The position numbers were made by a program, and so were the translations under genes. Under the pieces are notes generated by a model. It was not told where the DNA came from. It saw only the letters and a list, made by a program, of their open reading frames with translations, and searched no databases. DNA of 48,370 bases from Pseudomonadota bacterium (GTDB taxonomy: Bacteria > Pseudomonadota > Alphaproteobacteria > Rhodobacterales > Rhodobacteraceae). This document shows, in pieces, positions 8,100-19,384 of the stretch (position 1 is the first letter of the stretch; every line of letters starts with the position of its first letter). The stretch is taken from the NCBI GenBank assembly GCA_020161655.1, contig JAIUPC010000023.1, positions 80,231 through 128,600 of the forward strand, in the 5' to 3' direction.

Positions 8100-8756
8100 C
8101 TACCAGCTCGGCGGGGGTGAGTTCAGCTCGACCGCCAGATCGGCAAGGTAGCGCCGCATCCGCTCGGCGCGTTCCTCGGCCAGCTTGCGGCCCGTGGGGG
8201 TCAGGAAGGTATCGGGAAGCCTGAGAAGCTTCACTGCGAAATGATCCAGCGCATAGGCGGTGTCGTCCAGTGGCCGGTCGCGGGCGAAAGGGTCTTCGGG
8301 GTGGAAGAGCGTGCGGTTGAGCGCACCCGACACGGCGAAGCAACGCGCGACGCCGATTGCACCCAGCGCTTCAAGCCTGTCGGCATCGCGCAGCACCCGC
8401 GCCTCGGCCGATCCGGGCGGCGTGCCGCCGGAATAGGAATGCGCCTCGATCGCATGGCGGGCGCGGGCGATCTCGGTCGGCGACAGGCCCAGCGCCTGCA
8501 TCACCGGGCCGGCGGCGGAGGCCGACATCATCGCCGCGCGGTCACGCTTCGGATGGTCCTTCGGCAGCGACACGATGTCATGAAGATAGGCGGCGCAGAG
8601 GAGGACCGGCGCGAGATCGACGCCTTCCCCCATCGCGATGGTGCGCGCCTGGGTCCAGACCCGGTCGGCATGGGCAAGGTCATGCGCCGCATCGGTGCCG
8701 TCGGACATCTTCGTCACCACGTCGCGAAGGGCGTTGCGAAGGCTTTGCAGGTTCAT
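8100..8756 (-). CDS. HD-domain metal-dependent phosphohydrolase (YedJ-like)
   Basis: This 218-residue cytoplasmic protein carries an HD domain: HDLAHADRVW (residues 25-34), then AAYLHDIVS with the defining His59-Asp60, then the distal Asp in LRDADRLEALGAIG. These residues bind metal in HD phosphohydrolases. The pattern around residues 55-165 (KRDRAAMMSASAA, AIEAHSYSGG) resembles E. coli YedJ, whose substrate is not firmly known. The start at 8756 is the first Met near the conserved region; the frame is open further upstream but encodes Pro/Arg-rich sequence. It is convergent with the EamA gene and divergent from the LacI-type regulator. Confidence 0.85.
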   Translation of the reverse strand: MNLQSLRNALRDVVTKMSDGTDAAHDLAHADRVWTQARTIAMGEGVDLAPVLLCAAYLHDIVSLPKDHPKRDRAAMMSASAAGPVMQALGLSPTEIARARHAIEAHSYSGGTPPGSAEARVLRDADRLEALGAIGVARCFAVSGALNRTLFHPEDPFARDRPLDDTAYALDHFAVKLLRLPDTFLTPTGRKLAEERAERMRRYLADLAVELNSPPPSW

Positions 8757-8929: not shown

Positions 8930-9958
8930 ATGCGGCAGACGGAAAGCAAAGCGGGCGGGATCGTGAAGCCGACGTTTCAGATGATTGCCGAACGCGCCGG
9001 TGTCGGGCGGGCGACGGCGGAACGGGTGCTGAACGGCCGAGGCGGCGTTCGGCCGGAAAAGGTGATGAAGGTCGTCGCGGCGGCGCGGGCGCTCGACTGG
9101 CCGGGGCGCCTGCCGGAACTGCATCGCGGTATCCTCAGGATCGAGATCCTGCTGGTGCGCCCGGATTCGGCCTTCTACACCCGGCTTACGCGGTCGTTTC
9201 AGCGCATCGCCGCCACGCTCGACCGGTCGGTCCAGCTTATCATCACGCATCTCGACGAATCCGATCCGGTGGCCATTGCCCGACACATTGCCGAGGCAAA
9301 GCTGCCCCGCGCCGGGCTGGTCGTCGCCGCCCCGGATGCCGGCCCGGTGCGTGAGGCGCTGAAGGCGGCGGTCGGCCAAGGGCTGCCGGTGGTGCAGGTG
9401 GTCGAGCGGATCGCCGATGAGGCGGATTTCGTCGGGATCGAGAATTACGCGGTCGGGCGGACCGCGGGGTTGATGCTGTCGCGCATGTGTGCGGCGGGTG
9501 GCCCGGTGCTGTCGATCTGCCACAGCGGCACTTACGAAGGCCACCGGGCGCGGATGCGCGGGTTTTCGGACTACCTGACCAGCCTTGAGGCGCCGCGCCA
9601 TCAGCTGATCTTCACCGCCTTTGGCCAGGATTCCCGCACGCTGAACGCAAGGCGGCTGAACGAGTCTTTGCGCGAATGGCCCGATCTTGTGGCAGTCTAC
9701 AACGCGGGCGGGGGGAATGCGGAACTGTTCGAGATCCTTTCGCGGCAGAAGCGGCACATCTTCTTCGTCGGGCATGAGCTGACCGATACCAGCGCCAGCG
9801 CGCTCCGTTCCGGTGTTGCGGATGTGATCTTCGACCAGTTACCCGAGGCGCAGGCGCGGCGGGCGGTCAACATCGTGCTGGCGCGCCTTGGCCTGACCGA
9901 CATCAGGATCGACAACCCGCCGATCCGGTTCACGACCGTCACCGCCGAGAATATTTGA
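8930..9958 (+). CDS. LacI-family transcriptional regulator of the sugar block
   Basis: This 342-residue regulator has an N-terminal helix-turn-helix (about residues 15-38, FQMIAERAGVGRATAERVLNG) and a periplasmic-binding-protein-like effector domain. The hinge region (RPEKVMKVVAAARALDW) follows as in LacI proteins. The domain with SICHSGTYEGHRARMRGFSDYL and VYNAGGGNAELFE resembles regulators of the sugar-binding PBP class. The effector is probably the sugar or derivative handled by the genes downstream, all in the same direction. Few canonical LacI HTH residues are kept, so it is a divergent member. ATG 8930 lacks a clear binding site; GTG 8963 is an alternative. Confidence 0.87.
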   Translation: MRQTESKAGGIVKPTFQMIAERAGVGRATAERVLNGRGGVRPEKVMKVVAAARALDWPGRLPELHRGILRIEILLVRPDSAFYTRLTRSFQRIAATLDRSVQLIITHLDESDPVAIARHIAEAKLPRAGLVVAAPDAGPVREALKAAVGQGLPVVQVVERIADEADFVGIENYAVGRTAGLMLSRMCAAGGPVLSICHSGTYEGHRARMRGFSDYLTSLEAPRHQLIFTAFGQDSRTLNARRLNESLREWPDLVAVYNAGGGNAELFEILSRQKRHIFFVGHELTDTSASALRSGVADVIFDQLPEAQARRAVNIVLARLGLTDIRIDNPPIRFTTVTAENI

Positions 9959-10036
9959 TCCGATCTGCTCAACCGAGCGCATGCCGCGCGCGGACCGCTC
10001 TGGTAAGACTCACCTTCGAACAGGGGAGGGGGAGCC

Positions 10037-10828
10037 ATGATGCGCAAGGTGTCGGTCCACGATCTCATCGCCGCCAAGGGGCAAAGGAAGTGGCTTCAGG
10101 TCCATGTCGACAGCGGTGCCGAAGCTGCCGCCGCCGTCGAGGCCGGCATCGCGATCCTGTCCTGCGAACCCGACCATACGCTTGAGCCGATCCGAAGGGC
10201 GGCCCCTCTGGCCTTCGTCTCGGCAGGGATGCCGCACGGGATGGTAAGCTCGCCCGATGAGGCAATCCGCGAGGGGTTCAGGATCCTGAAGCGCGGCGCG
10301 GATGCGGTCTATTGTTCGCACTCGCCCCGTTTCATCGAGGCGATGGCGCGGGAGGGCATCCCGGTGACCGGGCATGTCGGGCTGGTGCCCAACCTCGCCG
10401 CCTGGACCGGGTTCCGCGCCGTCGGCAAGACGGCGGATGAGGCGCTTTCCGTCCTCCGCAAGGTCAAGGATCTTGAGAACGCGGGTGCGGCCTGTGTGGA
10501 GGTCGAGGTGGTGCCGGTGGAACTGGCCGATCACATCACCCGCACCACGCCGATGGTCACGATGGGCATGGGCTGTGGCGATGTCTGCGATACGCAGTAT
10601 CTCTTTTCTTCGGACGTGCTCGGCACCAACACCGGCCACTATCCCCGGCATTCGAAGAAATACGCAGATTTTACGGCACTTGAGGCCGAGATGCAGGCCC
10701 GGCGCGTGGCCGCTTTCAGGGCCTTTGCCGAGGATGTCGGCACCGGCCATTATCCGGAGCCCCGGCACCAGGTGCGGATGGACCCGGGCGAGCATGATAC
10801 GTTCCAGAAACGCGCGCAGTCGATCTGA
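10037..10828 (+). CDS. PanB-like (ketopantoate hydroxymethyltransferase family) protein, divergent
   Basis: This 263-residue TIM-barrel protein resembles PanB, which adds formaldehyde to 3-methyl-2-oxobutanoate in pantothenate synthesis. Shared features: SVHDLIAAKG, GIPVTGHVGLVPN (PanB has GHVGLTPQ), and EVVPVELADHIT, where Glu157 aligns with the PanB catalytic Glu. The metal ligands look lost. Where PanB has GDS the protein has SCEPD (42-46); where it has DMPF it has GMPH (64-67); where it has KLEG it has YCSH (92-95). The loop between the first two motifs is also shorter. It is therefore probably not a pantothenate enzyme. Its stop lies ten bases before the hydroxylase start, so the two genes are likely coupled. 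Confidence 0.75.
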   Translation: MMRKVSVHDLIAAKGQRKWLQVHVDSGAEAAAAVEAGIAILSCEPDHTLEPIRRAAPLAFVSAGMPHGMVSSPDEAIREGFRILKRGADAVYCSHSPRFIEAMAREGIPVTGHVGLVPNLAAWTGFRAVGKTADEALSVLRKVKDLENAGAACVEVEVVPVELADHITRTTPMVTMGMGCGDVCDTQYLFSSDVLGTNTGHYPRHSKKYADFTALEAEMQARRVAAFRAFAEDVGTGHYPEPRHQVRMDPGEHDTFQKRAQSI

Positions 10829-10838
10829 GGAGATGGCA

Positions 10839-11858
10839 ATGGATGACCTGAAGTTCGGCAGGCGCGACAAGCGCGGCGACTATCACCCCGGCGAGGCTGC
10901 CGGGACGGCGCCCCTCTTCGTCTTTCCGCCACAGCCGCGCGCGCTTCTGAAATGGCTGCCGCACTACTTCTTTCCCTACAACGCCATCTTCTTTCTCTCG
11001 GCGCTCATCTGGTGGAACTGGATCATCCCGCCGGTCGAGGTGATGCGGACTCTGGCCTGGGGCTGGGTGCTCTGGCTTCTGGCGGTGAATGTGGTGGCGG
11101 TGTTCCTGTGGTACTCCGCCTTCGAGTTGCAGCTTTACATCCGCCGCACCCAGGGCAACCGTTTCAAGTACAACGGCAAGTTTCCCGCCGACACGCCCTC
11201 GGACGTGTTCTGGTTCAAGAGCCAGAACCTCGACAACTTCCTGCGCGGTCTCTTGTCAGGCGTGCCGATCTGGACCGGGCTTGAGGTTCTGGTGCTCTGG
11301 GCCTTCGCCAACGGCTATGTGCCCTGGCTGAGCTTTGCCGCCCATCCGGTCTATCTGGCGCTTCTCTGTCTTGTCGTGCCGGTGATCCATGAGTTCCATT
11401 TCTTCTGCATCCACCGGCTGATCCACACGCCCTTCCTCTACAAATGGGTGCATTCGGTGCATCACAACTCGATCAATCCCTCGCCCTGGTCCTCGCTGTC
11501 GATGCATCCGGTCGAGCATCTTCTCTACTTCTCGACGATCCTCTACCACCTCATCATTCCGTCGAACCCGCTGATCGCGCTTTATCAGCTGCATTACGCC
11601 GGGTTCGGCGCGGTGCCGGGGCATGTCGGCTTCGACAAGGTCGAGCTGGGCGAGGATCGGGCGGTCGATACCCATGCCTATATCCACTACCTCCACCACA
11701 AGTATTTCGAGGTGAACTACGGCGATGGTCTGATCCCGATCGACCGTTGGGTAGGTACGTTCCACGACGGGTCGAAAGCGGCGGAAGAGCAGATGAACGC
11801 GCGCTACCGCAAGAAGAAGGAACGGCTGAACGCCGGCAAGATACCCCCTGTTCAGTGA
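10839..11858 (+). CDS. Sterol desaturase / fatty acid hydroxylase family membrane protein
   Basis: This 339-residue integral membrane protein belongs to the di-iron FA_hydroxylase family, whose members hydroxylate or desaturate lipids using O2. The histidine boxes are present: HRLIH (192-196), HSVHH (205-209) and HYLHH (283-287), plus H184, H187, H223 and H227. Hydrophobic segments lie near 46-64, 72-92, 145-160, 168-186 and 228-250. ATG 10839 has GAGGAG eight bases upstream, overlapping the end of the PanB-like gene; the earlier ATG 10833 is too close to it. The family is intact, but its substrate here is unknown. Its place inside a sugar-import block is unexpected. Confidence 0.9.
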   Translation: MDDLKFGRRDKRGDYHPGEAAGTAPLFVFPPQPRALLKWLPHYFFPYNAIFFLSALIWWNWIIPPVEVMRTLAWGWVLWLLAVNVVAVFLWYSAFELQLYIRRTQGNRFKYNGKFPADTPSDVFWFKSQNLDNFLRGLLSGVPIWTGLEVLVLWAFANGYVPWLSFAAHPVYLALLCLVVPVIHEFHFFCIHRLIHTPFLYKWVHSVHHNSINPSPWSSLSMHPVEHLLYFSTILYHLIIPSNPLIALYQLHYAGFGAVPGHVGFDKVELGEDRAVDTHAYIHYLHHKYFEVNYGDGLIPIDRWVGTFHDGSKAAEEQMNARYRKKKERLNAGKIPPVQ

Positions 11859-11976
11859 CCTGATGGCGGGCTCTGAAAACAAAGGTTGAGAAAGTTTAGG
11901 TTCCGGTCGACTTTAGCGGTAACATCGGTTGGTGGGGTGCTGAGACGATCACCTCAAATATCCTGTACCTTGCCAG

Positions 11977-11986
11977 TTGGCGCCAA
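11977..11986. promoter_or_regulatory. Candidate LacI-type operator upstream of the ABC importer
   Basis: TTGGCGCCAA is a perfect 10-bp palindrome with a central CG step, the symmetry typical of LacI-family operators. It lies in the 259-base gap before the ABC ATPase gene, 131 bases upstream of its start. No second copy was recognised, so this is an inference from shape and location. Confidence 0.35.
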
Positions 11987-12117
11987 GCTATCGTCGGGGG
12001 AGGGGGACTGATTCCGTAGGGTCAAGGGGGGCCTGACAGTACCGAAACGACCACGGAACATGACCGGGGAGGTTCGTTTGAACCCAGGGGACCCCGGCGG
12101 CACGGAAGGGGAGGAAG

Positions 12118-13650
<1,533 letters not shown>

Positions 13651-13666
13651 ACAGGAGATACGGGGA

Positions 13667-14671
13667 ATGTCTGACACCACCTTGGGTAAGACGGGGACCG
13701 GAAAATCCGCGCTCCTTTCCGCAGAGACGATGCAGAAGGCGGTGGCCTTCGTCGTGCTGATCGCATTGATCGCGTTCTTCAGTGCCTTCGCCTCGAACTT
13801 CGCCACCGGGGCGAACATGGTCGGCATCATGCAGGCCACCGCCGTCAACGGGGTGCTGGGCGTGGCGGTGACCTTCGTCATCATCTCGGGCGGGATCGAC
13901 CTCTCCGTCGGCACGATGATGACCCTCACCGCCGTGATGGCCGGGATCATCCTCACGAACCTCGGGATGCCCCTGCCGATCGGCATCATCGGCGCGATCC
14001 TTTCCGGCGCGCTCATGGGGGCGATCTCGGGCGCCACCATCGCCAAGCTGAAGATCCCGCCCTTCATTGCCACGCTCGGCATGATGCAGATCGCGCGCGG
14101 CCTGGCGCTGGTCTTTTCGGGCGCGAAGCCGATCTACTTCAACGACACGCCGAACTATGGGCTTCTCTCGCCGGAAAGCAGCATCTCGATGCTGATCCCC
14201 GGTATCGAGATTCCGAACGGCGTGATGATCATGTTCATCGTCGCGATCATCGCCTCCATCGTGCTGAACCGCACCATCATCGGCCGGATGATCTTTGCGC
14301 TCGGCTCGAACGAAGAGGCCGCGCGGCTTTCCGGCATCAATGTCGACCGCTGGAAGATCCTGACCTATGCGATCTGTGGCGGGATTTGCGGCATCGCCGG
14401 GCTGATCGTCTCCTCGCGCCTGAACTCTGCCCAGCCAGCGCTTGGGCTTGGCTATGAACTTGACGCCATCGCCGCCGCCGTGATCGGCGGCACCTCGCTC
14501 GCCGGCGGGCGCGGCACGGTGATCGGCACGATCATCGGCGCCTTCATCATGTCGGTCCTGACGAACGGGCTCAGGGTGATGGGCGTTCTGGAAGAATGGA
14601 AGATCGTCGTGACCGGTGTGATCATCATCGTCGCCGTGTTCATCGACATCGTCCTGCGGAAGAGAGCCTGA
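13667..14671 (+). CDS. Sugar ABC importer permease (RbsC type)
   Basis: This 334-residue protein has about ten membrane segments and is the permease of the CUT2 importer. Hallmarks are VNGVLGVAVTFVIISGGIDLSVGTMM near residues 61-85 and GLGYELDAIAAAVIGGTSLAGGRGTVIGT near 262-290, the coupling and substrate-path segments of the RbsC/XylH family. The N-terminal 25 residues are cytoplasmic. It sits 16 bases after the ATPase and 88 bases before the binding-protein gene; the three belong to one operon. One permease gene is expected to form the pore as a homodimer. Confidence 0.93.
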   Translation: MSDTTLGKTGTGKSALLSAETMQKAVAFVVLIALIAFFSAFASNFATGANMVGIMQATAVNGVLGVAVTFVIISGGIDLSVGTMMTLTAVMAGIILTNLGMPLPIGIIGAILSGALMGAISGATIAKLKIPPFIATLGMMQIARGLALVFSGAKPIYFNDTPNYGLLSPESSISMLIPGIEIPNGVMIMFIVAIIASIVLNRTIIGRMIFALGSNEEAARLSGINVDRWKILTYAICGGICGIAGLIVSSRLNSAQPALGLGYELDAIAAAVIGGTSLAGGRGTVIGTIIGAFIMSVLTNGLRVMGVLEEWKIVVTGVIIIVAVFIDIVLRKRA

Positions 14672-14759
14672 ACAAGGGGGACCGACCGAACCTGCCACGA
14701 CAAGACCAGACGACCCCGGACGCGAAGTATCGCGCCGGATCCAACCTAGGGAGTGAGAC

Positions 14760-15692
14760 ATGAGAAAGACCATTCTGACCTCGGCATTGGCGCTCGGCCT
14801 TGCCATGGGTGCTGCGCCCTCGTTCGCGCAGGAAACCTATTTCCCGATCATCGCCAAGGGCTTCAGCCACCAGTTCTGGCAGGCGGTGAAGGCCGGCGCC
14901 GAAGAGGCCGCCGGGCGCAACGGCGTGACGATCACCTTCGAGGGCCCGAACACCGAGGCCGAGATCGACAAGCAGACCGACATCCTGAACGCTGCCATCG
15001 CCAAGAACCCGCAGGGTCTGGGCTTTGCCGCGCTCGACAGCCAGGCGCAGGTGCCAGCGCTGCAGAAGGCCGCCGATGCGGGCATTCCGATTGTCGCCTT
15101 CGACTCGGGCGTCGACAGCGACCTGCCGCTGACCACCTGCACCACCGACAACATGGCGGCGGCTGCGGCAGCGGCGGACGGTCTTGCCAAGGCCATCGGC
15201 GAAGAGGGCAAGATCGCCGCGGTGATCCATGACCAGACCTCGGCCACCGGCATCGGTCGCCGCGACGGCTTCCTGAACCGGATCAAGGAAGCCTATCCTA
15301 AGATCGAGGTGGTGGACGTCCAGTATGCCAATGACGCGCTGAAGGCCGCCGACAACGTCAAGGCGATGCTGCAGGCGAACCCGGAGATAAAGGGCATCTT
15401 CGCCTCCAACGAAGGGTCGGCCATCGGCCTTGCGGTGGCGATCAAGGAAACCGGCGCGGCGATCGTCGGCGTCGGCTTTGACTCAGGGAAAAGCCAGAAG
15501 GATGCGATCAACGAAGGCACGCTGATCGGCTCGGTGACGCAGAACCCGGTCGGCATCGGCCAGTGCGTGGTCGACAGCCTTGCCAAGGCGCTGAAGGGCG
15601 AGGAACTCCCGAAGGTCATCGACACCGGCTTCTACTGGTACGACAAGACCAACATGGCCGACGAGAAGATCGCCGCGGTTCTCTACGACTGA
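14760..15692 (+). CDS. Periplasmic sugar-binding protein of the ABC importer (RbsB-like)
   Basis: This 310-residue periplasmic protein begins with a signal peptide (RKTILTSALALGLAMGAAPSFAQ, cut after AQ or near it) and carries the type I sugar-binding fold of the ribose/galactose class. Family segments include KGFSHQFWQAVKAGAEEAAG, TDILNAAIAKNPQGLGFAAL and PIVAFDSGVDSDLPLT. Aspartate and aromatic residues typical of the ligand pocket are visible, but the sugar cannot be assigned. A strong terminator follows, allowing the binding protein to be made in excess over downstream genes. Start ATG 14760 has GGGAG about eight bases upstream. Confidence 0.92.
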   Translation: MRKTILTSALALGLAMGAAPSFAQETYFPIIAKGFSHQFWQAVKAGAEEAAGRNGVTITFEGPNTEAEIDKQTDILNAAIAKNPQGLGFAALDSQAQVPALQKAADAGIPIVAFDSGVDSDLPLTTCTTDNMAAAAAAADGLAKAIGEEGKIAAVIHDQTSATGIGRRDGFLNRIKEAYPKIEVVDVQYANDALKAADNVKAMLQANPEIKGIFASNEGSAIGLAVAIKETGAAIVGVGFDSGKSQKDAINEGTLIGSVTQNPVGIGQCVVDSLAKALKGEELPKVIDTGFYWYDKTNMADEKIAAVLYD

Positions 15693-15757
15693 TCCTTGCC
15701 GTCCTCCAGGGCGCTCCTGACCCCTCGGGCGGGGGCGACCCGTTCTTCCTCACCCGG

Positions 15758-15785
15758 CCCGGTCTTCCGACCGGGTCGGTTTTTC
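15758..15785 (+). terminator. Terminator or attenuator between the binding-protein and mutarotase genes
   Basis: CCCGGTC (15758-15764), loop TTCC and GACCGGG (15769-15775) form a perfect 7-bp stem, followed by TCGG and five Ts. It lies just 12 bases before the fucU-like start, whose AGGA binding site follows the T-run. This is a partial or regulated terminator if the downstream genes belong to the same operon. Confidence 0.85.
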
Positions 15786-15796
15786 AGGATTGATCC

Positions 15797-16225
15797 ATGC
15801 TGATAGGACTGGACCCTGTGCTTGGGCCCGATTTGCTGGCCGTGCTGCGAAGCATGGGGCATGGCGATGAAATCGCCATTGTCGACGGCAACTACCCGGC
15901 GCTGACCGACGCGCGGCGTCTGGTCCGGGCCGATGGCCTTGGCCTCATCCCGGTGCTGCGTGCCGTGCTTTCGGTCTTGCCCATCGACAGGTCGGTCCCT
16001 GAGGCGATCTTCCGGGCGGTGAATGCGGCGCAGCCCGACCGGCCCGATCCGGTGCACGAAGAGATCATCACCCTTTGCGCCGGGATGGCGCCGGCGCATC
16101 CGGTCGTTCCGCTTGAACCCGTGGCCTTCTACAGCCGCGTCAAGGCCGCCCATGCAATCGTCGCCACCAGCGAGCCACGGTTCTTCGCCAACGTGATCCT
16201 GCGCAAGGGCGTCATCGGCGGGTGA
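15797..16225 (+). CDS. RbsD/FucU-family sugar mutarotase
   Basis: This 142-residue cytoplasmic protein catalyses anomer interconversion of a free sugar so that later enzymes receive the right form. The family motif GHGDEIAIVDGNYPA (21-35, catalytic His22) is close to FucU (L-fucose mutarotase), more than to RbsD. The C-terminal FYSRVKAAHAIVATSEPRFFANVILRKGV is the FucU ending, with residues AIVATSE in the active site. It lies behind the ABC importer and before the SDR, which supports an aldose route. Whether the true sugar is L-fucose, D-arabinose or another is open. The ATG at 15797 has AGGA six bases upstream. Confidence 0.88.
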   Translation: MLIGLDPVLGPDLLAVLRSMGHGDEIAIVDGNYPALTDARRLVRADGLGLIPVLRAVLSVLPIDRSVPEAIFRAVNAAQPDRPDPVHEEIITLCAGMAPAHPVVPLEPVAFYSRVKAAHAIVATSEPRFFANVILRKGVIGG

Positions 16226-16307
16226 GCCTTCAGAGCAAAAAACCAGCCCTTGCCATCGGGCGCGGGGTGGAATTTTCTACTCCGGTCGCGTTGGGGTGTG
16301 TCGGTAG

Positions 16308-17087
<780 letters not shown>

Positions 17088-17093
17088 CCGGCC

Positions 17094-18644
17094 TCAGGTG
17101 ATGGCGCCGACCTGCCAGGGCACGAATTCGTTGTCGCCGTAGTCGAAGGTTTCGCTGACCGTCTTTTCGCCCGAGGCAACGGCGAGGATGCGCTCGAAAA
17201 TCCGTGTCCCTGCGCTTTCGATGCTGTCGGTCCCGGTGGCGATGCCGCCGGTGTCGATGTCCATGTCCTCGCGCATGTGCTCATACATTTCGGTGTTGGT
17301 GGCGATCTTGAGGGTCGGCGCCGGCTTCCAGCCCGAGACCGAGCCGCGCCCGGTAGTAAAGCAGACCACGTTGCAGCCGCCTGCAACCTGCCCGGTGACG
17401 GCTACGGGGTCGTAGCCGGGCGTGTCCATGAAGACGAAGCCGGGCTCATCGATGATCTCGGCATATTCGTAGACGGCCTTGAGCGGCATCGAACCGCCCT
17501 TGGCCACCGCGCCCAGCGACTTTTCAAGGATGGTGGTCAGCCCGCCCTGCTTGTTGCCGAAGCTCGGGTTGTTGTTCAGCTCCGCCCCGTTGCGGGCGGT
17601 GTAGTCGCGCCACCAGGCGATGCGATCCATCAGCTTCCGCCCGACCTCTGGCGTGACTGCGCGGCGGGTGAGAAGGTGTTCCGCGCCGTAGATTTCCGGC
17701 GTCTCGGCAAGGCAGGAGGTGCCGCCGTTCCGCACGATCAGGTCCGAGGCCACCCCAAGCGCGGGGTTGGCGGTGATCCCGGAATAGCCGTCCGACCCGC
17801 CGCATTCCAGCGCGACCTTCAGGCCGGAAAGCGGCTGCTTCGTCCGCCTTGCCGCGTTCACGCCGGGCAGCATCTCGCGGATCATGCTGCAGGCGGCGTC
17901 GATGGTCTTCCGCGTGCCGCCCATGGCCTGAATGTTCATGGTTCGGAAGCGCTCGCCCTCTTCCAGCTTGTAATGCTCAAGGATCGGCTGGATCTGGTTC
18001 GTCTCGCAGCCGAGGCCGACCATGATGATGCCGCCAAAGTTCGGGTGGCGGGCATAGCCCTGGATCGTGCGGGTCAGGTAGCGGTAGCCTTCCGAGGCAT
18101 TGCTGATCGCGCAGCCAAGGCCGTGGGTCAGGGCGACGACGCCGTCGACACTGTTGAAGCCGTCAAGTCCGCCCATCCGGTTGAAATGATCCGCGATGTA
18201 GCGCGACACGGTGGCCGAACAGTTGACCGTGGTGACGATGCCGATGAAGTTGCGGGTCCCCACCCCGCCCGCGCCCCGATCATAGCCCATGAACGTGCGG
18301 CAAAGGTCCGGGGGCAGCATTCCCGTCTCATCGGTCTCGACCGCGAACTGATGGTCGGCTCCGGTCTCGGACATGGCGAGGTTGTGCATATGCACATGGT
18401 CCCCCGCCGCGATGTCTTGGGTGGCGACCCCGATCACCTGTCCGAATTTGCGCAGCACCTTGCCGGCCGGAATGTACCGGAGCGCGACCTTGTGCCCGCG
18501 CGGGATCAGCTGGTTCGCGGTGACCCCCGACAGACCCGTCGGCTCGCCCTTGGCGATGCGGCGGCGGGCGACGGCGACATCGTCGGCCGGGTTCAGAAGC
18601 AGCGCGGCGGCGGTTTCCTCGAGGGGCATGGCGGCGGCCTTCAT
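17094..18644 (-). CDS. UxaA-family (altronate/galactarate dehydratase-like) enzyme
   Basis: This 516-residue protein is a full-length UxaA: an N-terminal SAF domain (about residues 15-105) and the large metal-dependent dehydratase domain. Motifs include GYDRGAGGVGTRNFIGIVTTVNCS, ALTHGLGCA, IIMVGLGCETNQI and ALECGGSDGYSGITANPALG, which carry the conserved Cys and acidic residues of the family. Members remove water from aldonic or aldaric acids such as altronate and galactarate, giving 2-oxo-3-deoxy acids. It probably acts on the product of the neighbouring SDR. ATG 18644 lacks a clear binding site; ATG 18629 has AAGG seven bases upstream and is an alternative. Confidence 0.9.
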   Translation of the reverse strand: MKAAAMPLEETAAALLLNPADDVAVARRRIAKGEPTGLSGVTANQLIPRGHKVALRYIPAGKVLRKFGQVIGVATQDIAAGDHVHMHNLAMSETGADHQFAVETDETGMLPPDLCRTFMGYDRGAGGVGTRNFIGIVTTVNCSATVSRYIADHFNRMGGLDGFNSVDGVVALTHGLGCAISNASEGYRYLTRTIQGYARHPNFGGIIMVGLGCETNQIQPILEHYKLEEGERFRTMNIQAMGGTRKTIDAACSMIREMLPGVNAARRTKQPLSGLKVALECGGSDGYSGITANPALGVASDLIVRNGGTSCLAETPEIYGAEHLLTRRAVTPEVGRKLMDRIAWWRDYTARNGAELNNNPSFGNKQGGLTTILEKSLGAVAKGGSMPLKAVYEYAEIIDEPGFVFMDTPGYDPVAVTGQVAGGCNVVCFTTGRGSVSGWKPAPTLKIATNTEMYEHMREDMDIDTGGIATGTDSIESAGTRIFERILAVASGEKTVSETFDYGDNEFVPWQVGAIT

Positions 18645-18730: not shown

Positions 18731-19384
18731 CTAGAGATAGGTCCGCGCACCATGGCGTTCGGGGCGGTCGAGATGCGGCGTGGCGCCGAACTGGGTCAGG
18801 TGCAGGGTGCCGTCGGAATAGTCGAACTTGTGGACGGAGGTATTGCCGACGCGCAGGAACATCCGGGCCTTGACCTCGGGCGTGAGGCCAAGCGCGATGG
18901 ACGTCAGGGTGGCGATGACCCCCGTCGAGGTGACGAGGACCGCGCCCGGCCCGTTGGCTGCCGCATCTCCGACGGCCGAAAGGATGCGGGCGCGAAAAGC
19001 CTCGTAGCCTTCGTGCAGGTCGTCGCTGTCGCCGCGCCGCCACATGTCCAGAACCTGCGGGATATGGGCGGCGAAGGACTCGGCGCTTGACGGGAAGGGG
19101 ACGCCGTGCCGGTCGTTCAGCACCTTCGAGAGAAGGAAATAGTCGATCTCGTTCAGCCGGGGATCGGCGTCATGGGGCCGGGCGTCGAGGTTGAGCCCCT
19201 CGGCCGTTTCGCGCTGGCGCCGCAGCGTGCCGGAAATCACCCGGTCAAAGCCGCCGGTGTCGCGCAGATGCTCGCCGAGCCACGCGGCCTGCCGGTGCCC
19301 GAGGTCGGACAGGCGGTCGTAGTCGGCTTCTGTCGTCGCGCCAAAATTGGCCTGGCCGTGGCGGATCAGGATCACTTCGGTCAT
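18731..19384 (-). CDS. Histidine phosphatase superfamily protein with altered second-histidine site
   Basis: This 217-residue protein has the phosphoglycerate-mutase fold, opening MTEVILIRHGQANFG with the nucleophilic His9 in the RHG motif and a phosphate-pocket Arg in SGTLRRQRETAEG. Where most family members have a second catalytic His in a VSHGG-like motif, this protein has VTSTGVI (151-157), placing Ser153 at that position. It follows the response regulator gene with a one-base gap, so all three genes of the minus-strand operon are cotranscribed. The substrate is unknown, and reduced or altered activity is possible. Confidence 0.85.
   Translation of the reverse strand: MTEVILIRHGQANFGATTEADYDRLSDLGHRQAAWLGEHLRDTGGFDRVISGTLRRQRETAEGLNLDARPHDADPRLNEIDYFLLSKVLNDRHGVPFPSSAESFAAHIPQVLDMWRRGDSDDLHEGYEAFRARILSAVGDAAANGPGAVLVTSTGVIATLTSIALGLTPEVKARMFLRVGNTSVHKFDYSDGTLHLTQFGATPHLDRPERHGARTYL

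Follow-up and report, generated by a model that had tools for sequence, protein, structure and literature searches.

Gene content of the block

The window, a 48,370-nucleotide stretch of Rhodobacteraceae DNA (contig JAIUPC010000023.1), carries a block of genes built around a PanB-like protein, PanBL, whose stop codon lies 4 bases before the start of a membrane oxygenase gene. PanBL and its oxygenase belong to a unit found widely in bacteria and akin to rhizopine degradation, which probably takes up methylated sugars or cyclitols, removes their methyl group with the membrane oxygenase, and delivers the carbon to folate. The features of the block are as follows.

8930..9958, plus strand: LacI-family regulator (PF00356 and PF13407)
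10037..10828, plus strand: PanB-like protein, PanBL (PF02548, E 2e-40)
10833..11858, plus strand: membrane di-iron oxygenase of the fatty-acid-hydroxylase superfamily (PF04116), a putative O-demethylase
12118..13650, plus strand: RbsA-type ATPase of a sugar importer
13667..14671, plus strand: RbsC-type permease
14760..15692, plus strand: RbsB-type substrate-binding protein (PF13407)
15754..15779, plus strand: terminator-like hairpin 3' of the RbsB gene and before the FucU gene (11-bp stem, loop of 4, T run)
15797..16225, plus strand: FucU/RbsD-type mutarotase (PF05025; 83.4 bits against the L-fucose mutarotase model, below its cut-off of 141)
16317..17087, plus strand: short-chain dehydrogenase/reductase (SDR) of the L-fucose dehydrogenase family, accessory (passes the NCBIfam equivalog NF052481, 397.8 against a cut-off of 300)
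17094..18644, minus strand: UxaA/GarD-type sugar-acid dehydratase, accessory (PF20629, PF04295, and PF08666)

All nine genes lie at the positions and in the directions given by the first-pass annotation of this DNA, which was made from the letters alone. Its statement that the block has no kinase or known aldolase also held, none being found among the ten proteins scanned between positions 8103 and 18644; a search confined to the same ten also gave no lactonase and no DapA-type aldolase. The UxaA/GarD-type protein scores 380 against the galactarate dehydratase model, below the cut-off of 731. The hairpin has the longest stem of four such sites in the region, where shuffled sequences lead one to expect 5.2 sites. 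Neither a promoter scan nor a search of inverted repeats for a LacI site yielded anything usable.

PanBL is linked to membrane oxygenases

PanBL is firmly linked to membrane oxygenases. When 120 genomes of the window's family were searched separately for PanBL, the hydroxylase, and the desaturase, 41 PanBL copies were found in 23 genomes, and 33 of the 41 lie within 6 kilobases (kb) of a PF04116-type or MocD-type oxygenase; one further copy (G049:C60) has an oxygenase at 6.7 kb. This distance count used 41 PanBL, 66 hydroxylase, and 59 of 73 desaturase rows, the 14 weakest desaturase rows, none of them near an exception, being left out. A second set, of 52 loci, was obtained by scanning genome contigs with the PanB-like protein alone and then mapping the window genes on them; it was drawn by peptide patterns of the window protein and is biased to near kin. 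Here an oxygenase is near 51 of 56 PanBL copies, or 47 of the 50 with both flanks longer than 1.5 kb, 22 of these 50 coming from SAR11-type loci, which sample a single lineage over and over (L050 and L058 carry the title Pelagibacteraceae, all others Alphaproteobacteria). Within 6 kb, a hydroxylase is near 25 copies, a desaturase near 24, and both near two. In other relatives PanBL adjoins a fatty-acid-desaturase-type protein (PF00487 in L038), often with a gene for a MocE-type Rieske ferredoxin in between. That two oxygenase families share one PanBL partner argues for a link at the level of the reaction. Because gene calls by open-frame length are unreliable in G+C-rich loci, all counts rest on tblastn maps and genome searches. 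The cluster histidines of the hydroxylase (His 189, 194, 198, 207, 210, 211, 225, 285, 288, and 289) are invariant in an alignment of 23 sequences, the window protein and 22 of 25 hydroxylases.

Seven of the eight PanBL copies beyond 6 kb were fetched; the eighth (G049:C20), a fragment with a stop, was left out. G065 is a circular plasmid of N. shimadae on which the operon runs across the record start, in the order LacI, PanBL, hydroxylase, RbsB, RbsC, ATPase, MocE, TIM barrel, reductase, second PanBL, folD, purU, iolG. In G125 a ferredoxin precedes PanBL and an FAD-binding monooxygenase-type protein (PF01494) follows it, while importer genes lie beside PanBL in G121, and in G069 (among cell-wall genes), G111, and G090 it looks like an orphan.

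Several arrangements around PanBL were seen in passing. In L091 (5953-6783) a lone PanBL gene is oriented against its surroundings, which look like peptidoglycan (mur) genes. A second, divergent PanBL is present in some SAR11-type genomes (L050:13877-17330, also L052 and L068); it faces an operon of desaturase, reductase, and ferredoxin, past which lies an RbsA-like importer gene. A 140-residue protein without a Pfam match (L038:8555-8977) precedes the desaturase and PanBL in marine genomes, the same cluster occurring in 21 loci. L097 (3799-8962) has in a row a Rieske-oxygenase-like protein, so named from its sequence and without a family call, two PanBL copies, an M24-family protein, and a hydroxylase, perhaps giving a third oxygenase type beside PanBL. 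Contigs of metagenome-assembled genomes (MAGs) labeled Actinomycetota (L037 and L072) hold a 71% identical PanBL of alphaproteobacterial type, either misbinned or transferred, and the sister genome, a MAG, has fragments of PanBL and hydroxylase next to TIM-barrel and ferredoxin genes that look intact (L105:3178-5304).

A conserved core with a local addition

The grouping of LacI, PanBL, hydroxylase, and importer exceeds chance. Outside marine genomes the repeated core is PanBL, a LacI gene, and the hydroxylase. A LacI protein 48 to 95% identical to the window's is encoded upstream of PanBL in many fetched loci, while six loci instead carry another LacI (28 to 30%) between PanBL and the hydroxylase. 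RbsA copies 79 to 95% identical follow the hydroxylase in L021, L022, L028, L032, and L034, some with a ferredoxin in between, and L028 has a glycosyltransferase gene upstream of the unit. The Rbs-type importers beside PanBL are of at least two kinds, with RbsB either 71 to 97% or 22 to 24% identical to the window RbsB (aligned here were 11 of 16 binding proteins besides the window's own). The pairing of a ribose-type importer with PanB-like and hydroxylase genes, noted at first pass, is thus a frequent one, importer genes lying within 6 kb of 21 of 50 PanBL copies. The first-pass annotation had held that homologues of the PanB-like and hydroxylase genes mostly away from such importers would tell against its reading, and here the outcome is mixed: for PanBL an importer is near 18 of 28 copies outside SAR11-type genomes (three by weak RbsA matches only) and 3 of 22 inside them, and for the hydroxylase most homologues lie away from PanBL (see below).

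The SDR and UxaA genes behave differently from this core. The closest named PanBL match is that of the MAG UBA6273 (94% identical). FucU recurs in two loci, L021 and L022, downstream of RbsB, and L021 has no room for SDR or UxaA between FucU and the next gene. At the sister locus, whose PanBL is 94% identical, both are absent, FucU running directly into the next gene; that genome, only 84% complete, has a 60% identical SDR elsewhere and no UxaA at E 1e-80. UxaA lies within 6 kb of 0 of 50 PanBL copies and SDR near 2 of 50, by matches of only 30 to 34%. Of 61 genomes including the window's own, 3 have the SDR at E 1e-70 and 19 have UxaA at E 1e-80. Since the sister locus lacks both genes and none of the 50 PanBL copies counted has UxaA nearby, SDR and UxaA are accessory, and the block is a conserved core plus a local add-on rather than one undescribed sugar route. 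Of the single pathway proposed at first pass, the LacI, PanBL, hydroxylase, and importer grouping therefore stands, and the membership of SDR and UxaA is not conserved. Next to the SDR/UxaA pair lies a phosphatase-like gene (window 18731-19384) 63% identical to the sister's copy, while the other genes common to the window and the sister locus are 92 to 99% identical; it possibly marks a recombination edge.

PanBL has lost part of the PanB active site

PanB is itself a tetrahydrofolate (THF)-dependent one-carbon (C1) enzyme, and PanBL copies are named pantothenate enzymes in public records. The window PanBL reaches 105 bits against a cut-off of 207.6 and 125.8 against 272 with the curated panB equivalog and subfamily models, and PanBL forms a clade separate from canonical PanB with support of 100/100. 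An alignment of PanBL took in 32 of 56 copies besides the window protein. Its structural model (pLDDT 91.2) has PanB structures as its best PDB matches, at a TM score of about 0.7 to 3vav, 1oy0, and 1m3u; weaker matches include 2,3-dimethylmalate and methylisocitrate lyases.

E. coli D84, K112, E114, H136, and E181 were placed by counting along 1m3u, and PanBL rows with a stop or fewer than 230 residues were dropped from the survey. D84, K112, and E114 are each kept in 0 of 88 PanBL, while His136 and Glu181 are present in 88 of 88, as is an invariant Glu new to PanBL, two positions ahead of E181. For Asp45 the GDS motif was used instead, because the alignment near it is gapped and unsure; the motif is in 0 of 88 PanBL within the first 60 residues. 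Canonical PanB proteins of the relatives keep Asp45 (GDS motif), D84, K112, and E114 in 9 of 9 cases each. The 88 rows include near-identical ones, and the counts are unchanged in 59 rows at 90% identity. PanBL also has conserved Glu, Tyr, Trp, and His residues not found in PanB. We take D45, D84, and E114 of PanB to serve the metal and the ketoacid, and E181 to contact the hydroxymethyl oxygen; on these assignments, the C1 side of the site would be retained in PanBL and the ketoacid side lost.

A canonical PanB is encoded elsewhere in 10 of 12 chosen PanBL genomes, and the two without it are marine genomes of 1.1 to 1.2 Mb, one titled Pelagibacteraceae. These scores, the active-site loss, and the separate canonical PanB led us to reject PanBL as a pantothenate enzyme.

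Rhizopine loci, inositol genes, and folate genes

PanBL also occurs in rhizopine (moc) loci. On plasmid pPR13E04 of R. indicum (L100), iolE, a MocA-like gene, a binding-protein gene, and MocR (739 bits, cut-off 650) are followed by mocD-mocE-mocF-PanBL-purU, and S. meliloti BL225C (L104) has the same mocDEF-PanBL-purU order, with MocR at 764 against 650 and PanBL in two frames. R. johnstonii 3841 has LacI, mocDEF-like genes, and PanBL. Among plasmid records MocD of 3841 has 266 matches and the rhizopine-locus PanBL 252 (at E 1e-60), with nearly equal counts per genus.

Sullivan et al. (PMC3538637) tie mocDEF to the catabolism of rhizopine, L-3-O-methyl-scyllo-inosamine, and FixV-type LacI regulators are described there beside mocDEF; mocDEF are also named as rhizopine genes in PMC10107442. 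In R. mesoamericanum STM3625, Mimosa exudate induces mocDEF homologues, iol genes, and idhA; pinitol, an O-methyl inositol, is the compound at the highest concentration in that exudate (PMC5789663). The available text of PMC3538637, PMC5789663, PMC10107442, and PMC5132102 does not mention PanBL or PurU in connection with moc, and "panB" has 0 matches in that of PMC3538637. The hydroxymethyltransferase dealt with in PMC5320631 is serine hydroxymethyltransferase; most subscription journals lay outside the literature covered. Strain STM3625 also carries the hydroxylase-type unit L024. We infer, with support from general background, that mocDEF removes the O-methyl group.

Inositol genes lie beside other PanBL units as well. 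In L085, iolB, E, D, and C adjoin the unit, all above curated cut-offs, and L078 has an iolC domain beside it; the names IolB, E, D, and C in our maps were our own labels and were checked by models for L085 and L078. In L102 and L103 iolG or iolC, as annotated, is found. Folate genes recur too: a purU gene is no more than 4 kb away from PanBL in L024, L049, L074, L077, L093/L103, L100, and L104, and folD in L077 and L093/L103. R. lentis (L074:12845-13267) retains PanBL, the reductase, and purU, while its hydroxylase looks decayed.

A proposed demethylation pathway and its alternatives

What is observed is that the genes are linked, that PanBL occurs in rhizopine loci and has an altered active site, and that folD and purU are neighbors in relatives; the reactions and the substrate given here are what we infer from them. 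The core, with the mutarotase counted in, would import an O-methylated aldose, remove the methyl group oxidatively, and have PanBL move the C1 unit to THF, a reading to which we give a probability of about 0.58. The importer would bring in the methyl sugar, to which, or to a product of which, LacI would respond. The di-iron membrane enzyme, with electrons from a MocE-type ferredoxin, would hydroxylate the methyl ether to a hemiacetal (RO-CH2OH), and PanBL would load carbon at the formaldehyde level, drawn either from this hemiacetal or from formaldehyde set free, on THF to give methylene-THF, which FolD and PurU would turn into formate and free THF. FucU would equilibrate the freed aldose, which in the window species the SDR would oxidize and the UxaA-type enzyme dehydrate. 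Within this scheme oxidative demethylation is likely, and the first-pass annotation's passing guess of a methylated sugar finds support in it. A bolder proposal, with somewhat less than an even chance, is that PanBL is a THF-dependent C1-capturing enzyme that arose from PanB with loss of the metal site and is the missing fourth component of membrane di-iron O-demethylases, turning hemiacetal or formaldehyde directly into methylene-THF. It would do so in SAR11-type marine bacteria as well as in rhizobia, on rhizopine and pinitol, and in Rhodobacteraceae, on methyl aldoses. If true, proteins that are as a rule labeled vitamin B5 enzymes would mark the oxidative removal of methyl groups from sugars and cyclitols, the long-known rhizopine operon would gain its C1 step, and a C1 source would be indicated in SAR11-type bacteria, where PanBL lies directly behind a desaturase-type oxygenase.

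Several points weigh against the demethylation pathway. Most oxygenase homologues lie away from PanBL (within 8 kb of it are 13 of 66 hydroxylase and 23 of 59 desaturase matches). No oxygenase is near PanBL in L043, where a ferredoxin is present, L065, or L072; in the 120-genome set, L091, L092, and L095 have neither oxygenase nor ferredoxin among the query proteins mapped, and L094 has only importer genes and a weak kinase-like match. Ferredoxin, reductase, folD, and purU were not found in the window block, and the 259-bp gap 5' of RbsA holds no ferredoxin frame. In the window genome close MocE-type ferredoxins (53 to 67%) occur only in two paralogous PanBL units, L078 and L079 (C13 and C23), besides one weak match of 29%; the window hydroxylase would thus borrow electrons or use another donor. 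Both R. indicum binding proteins fail the rhizopine substrate-binding-protein model NF052284 (39.8 and 138 against 420), and for mocDEF of P. syringae PMC5132102 notes opine-like or aromatic compounds as possible substrates instead. A methylated substrate for the window block is itself a conjecture, and the folate role of PanBL is plausible from homology and gene neighbors.

The alternative that survives best, and still an unlikely one, has PanBL and the oxygenase act on a methylated cyclitol or sugar, with PanBL handling no C1 unit but working on the ring, once this is demethylated or oxidized, as lyase, isomerase, or scaffold. The strong PanBL-oxygenase linkage, the iol and TIM-barrel neighbors, and the PanBL-specific Glu, Tyr, Trp, and His would all suit it, but purU and folD as neighbors, the retention of Glu181 in a relative of a THF C1 enzyme, and the lack of any iol match among the genes mapped near SAR11-type copies argue against it. 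It is improbable that the block is one undescribed route for an aldose, with SDR and UxaA yielding a 2-keto-3-deoxy acid and PanBL as the aldolase, along the lines that the first-pass annotation suggested. All the genes are adjacent, the block has no other aldolase, and the PanB fold is common to lyases, two of which are among the weaker structural matches; yet PanBL and oxygenase occur without SDR or UxaA, at the sister locus and almost throughout the 50 copies counted, and the GDS motif (Asp45), Asp84, and Glu114, with the metal and ketoacid roles we take them to have, are gone. About as improbable is a lipid or sterol hydroxylase with a membrane-lipid role and an incidental importer: PF04116 and PF00487 are named for lipid enzymes and L028 has its glycosyltransferase, but linkage to soluble-sugar importers, iolBEDC, and rhizopine genes, and LacI- or MocR-type regulators, point elsewhere. 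That an ordinary pantothenate enzyme was duplicated into the operon, as its database name and PF02548 match would have it, can be dismissed on the equivalog scores, the separate clade, and the canonical PanB in 10 of the 12 genomes checked.

The version of the unit in the window species

The window genome has three PanBL units: the window block, L078 (neighbors: desaturase, ferredoxin, TIM barrel, importer, and iolC domain), and L079 (hydroxylase, importer, ferredoxin, and TIM barrel). The best MocF-like protein of this genome (39%) is encoded at C11. As to the substrate, the presence of FucU suggests a reducing sugar. The window RbsB fails the rhizopine model NF052284 (73.3 against 420), and its nearest solved structures include 4kqc, 4wut, 4rxt, and 5dkv, the ligands of 4wut and 4rxt being probably D-fucose and D-arabinose. 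The best solved relatives of the SDR are 4gkb and 6drr, presumably fucose enzymes of Burkholderia and Campylobacter. From the likeness of SDR and UxaA to a Campylobacter cluster (see below), one may guess at a methylated fucose- or arabinose-like sugar.

Comparison with known systems

The Campylobacter L-fucose/D-arabinose cluster bears on the add-on. We take its Cj0485 to be an SDR and Cj0488 a mutarotase. The window SDR, by its L-fucose dehydrogenase model, and UxaA resemble FucX and Cj0482/Cj0483, which upholds the oxidation-dehydration reading given to this pair at first pass; the window block differs in that neither a lactonase nor a DapA-type aldolase turned up among its ten scanned proteins and in that its SDR and UxaA are additions to a PanBL unit. 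According to PMC9100392, the cluster, Cj0480c-Cj0490, includes FucX (Cj0485) and an altronate-dehydratase-type enzyme, Cj0482/Cj0483, of which Cj0483 is non-essential for L-fucose use.

With PanB, ketopantoate hydroxymethyltransferase, PanBL shares the PF02548 domain, the barrel fold, and the equivalents of His136 and Glu181; it differs in its separate clade and in the replacement of the GDS motif, Asp84, Lys112, and Glu114. Alkylglycerol monooxygenase, an enzyme of the PF04116 superfamily like the window hydroxylase, cleaves an ether by alpha-hydroxylation; compared by its described chemistry, it differs in acting on lipid ethers with tetrahydrobiopterin.

In the purU-mabO-folD operon the demethylation product is channeled through methylene-THF, as described in PMC3891541. 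Demethylation is there coupled to methylene-THF, FolD, and PurU, and the same folate genes lie near PanBL in some relatives; the difference is that an N-methyl amine oxidase directly makes methylene-THF, whereas in the PanBL unit an oxygenase is proposed to act on an O-methyl group, with PanBL as its proposed THF partner.

The Moc rhizopine system is another close parallel. The first-pass annotation found no place for the hydroxylase in known sugar routes, but membrane oxygenases are the usual partner of PanBL, and mocDEF rhizopine degradation uses such an enzyme. The window block differs from moc in having a PF04116 hydroxylase in place of the PF00487 MocD, a LacI regulator rather than MocR, and a mutarotase, and in lacking ferredoxin, reductase, and iol genes. 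It shares with moc an Rbs-type importer and a membrane di-iron oxygenase, and in two loci with MocR above its cut-off PanBL and purU directly follow mocDEF.

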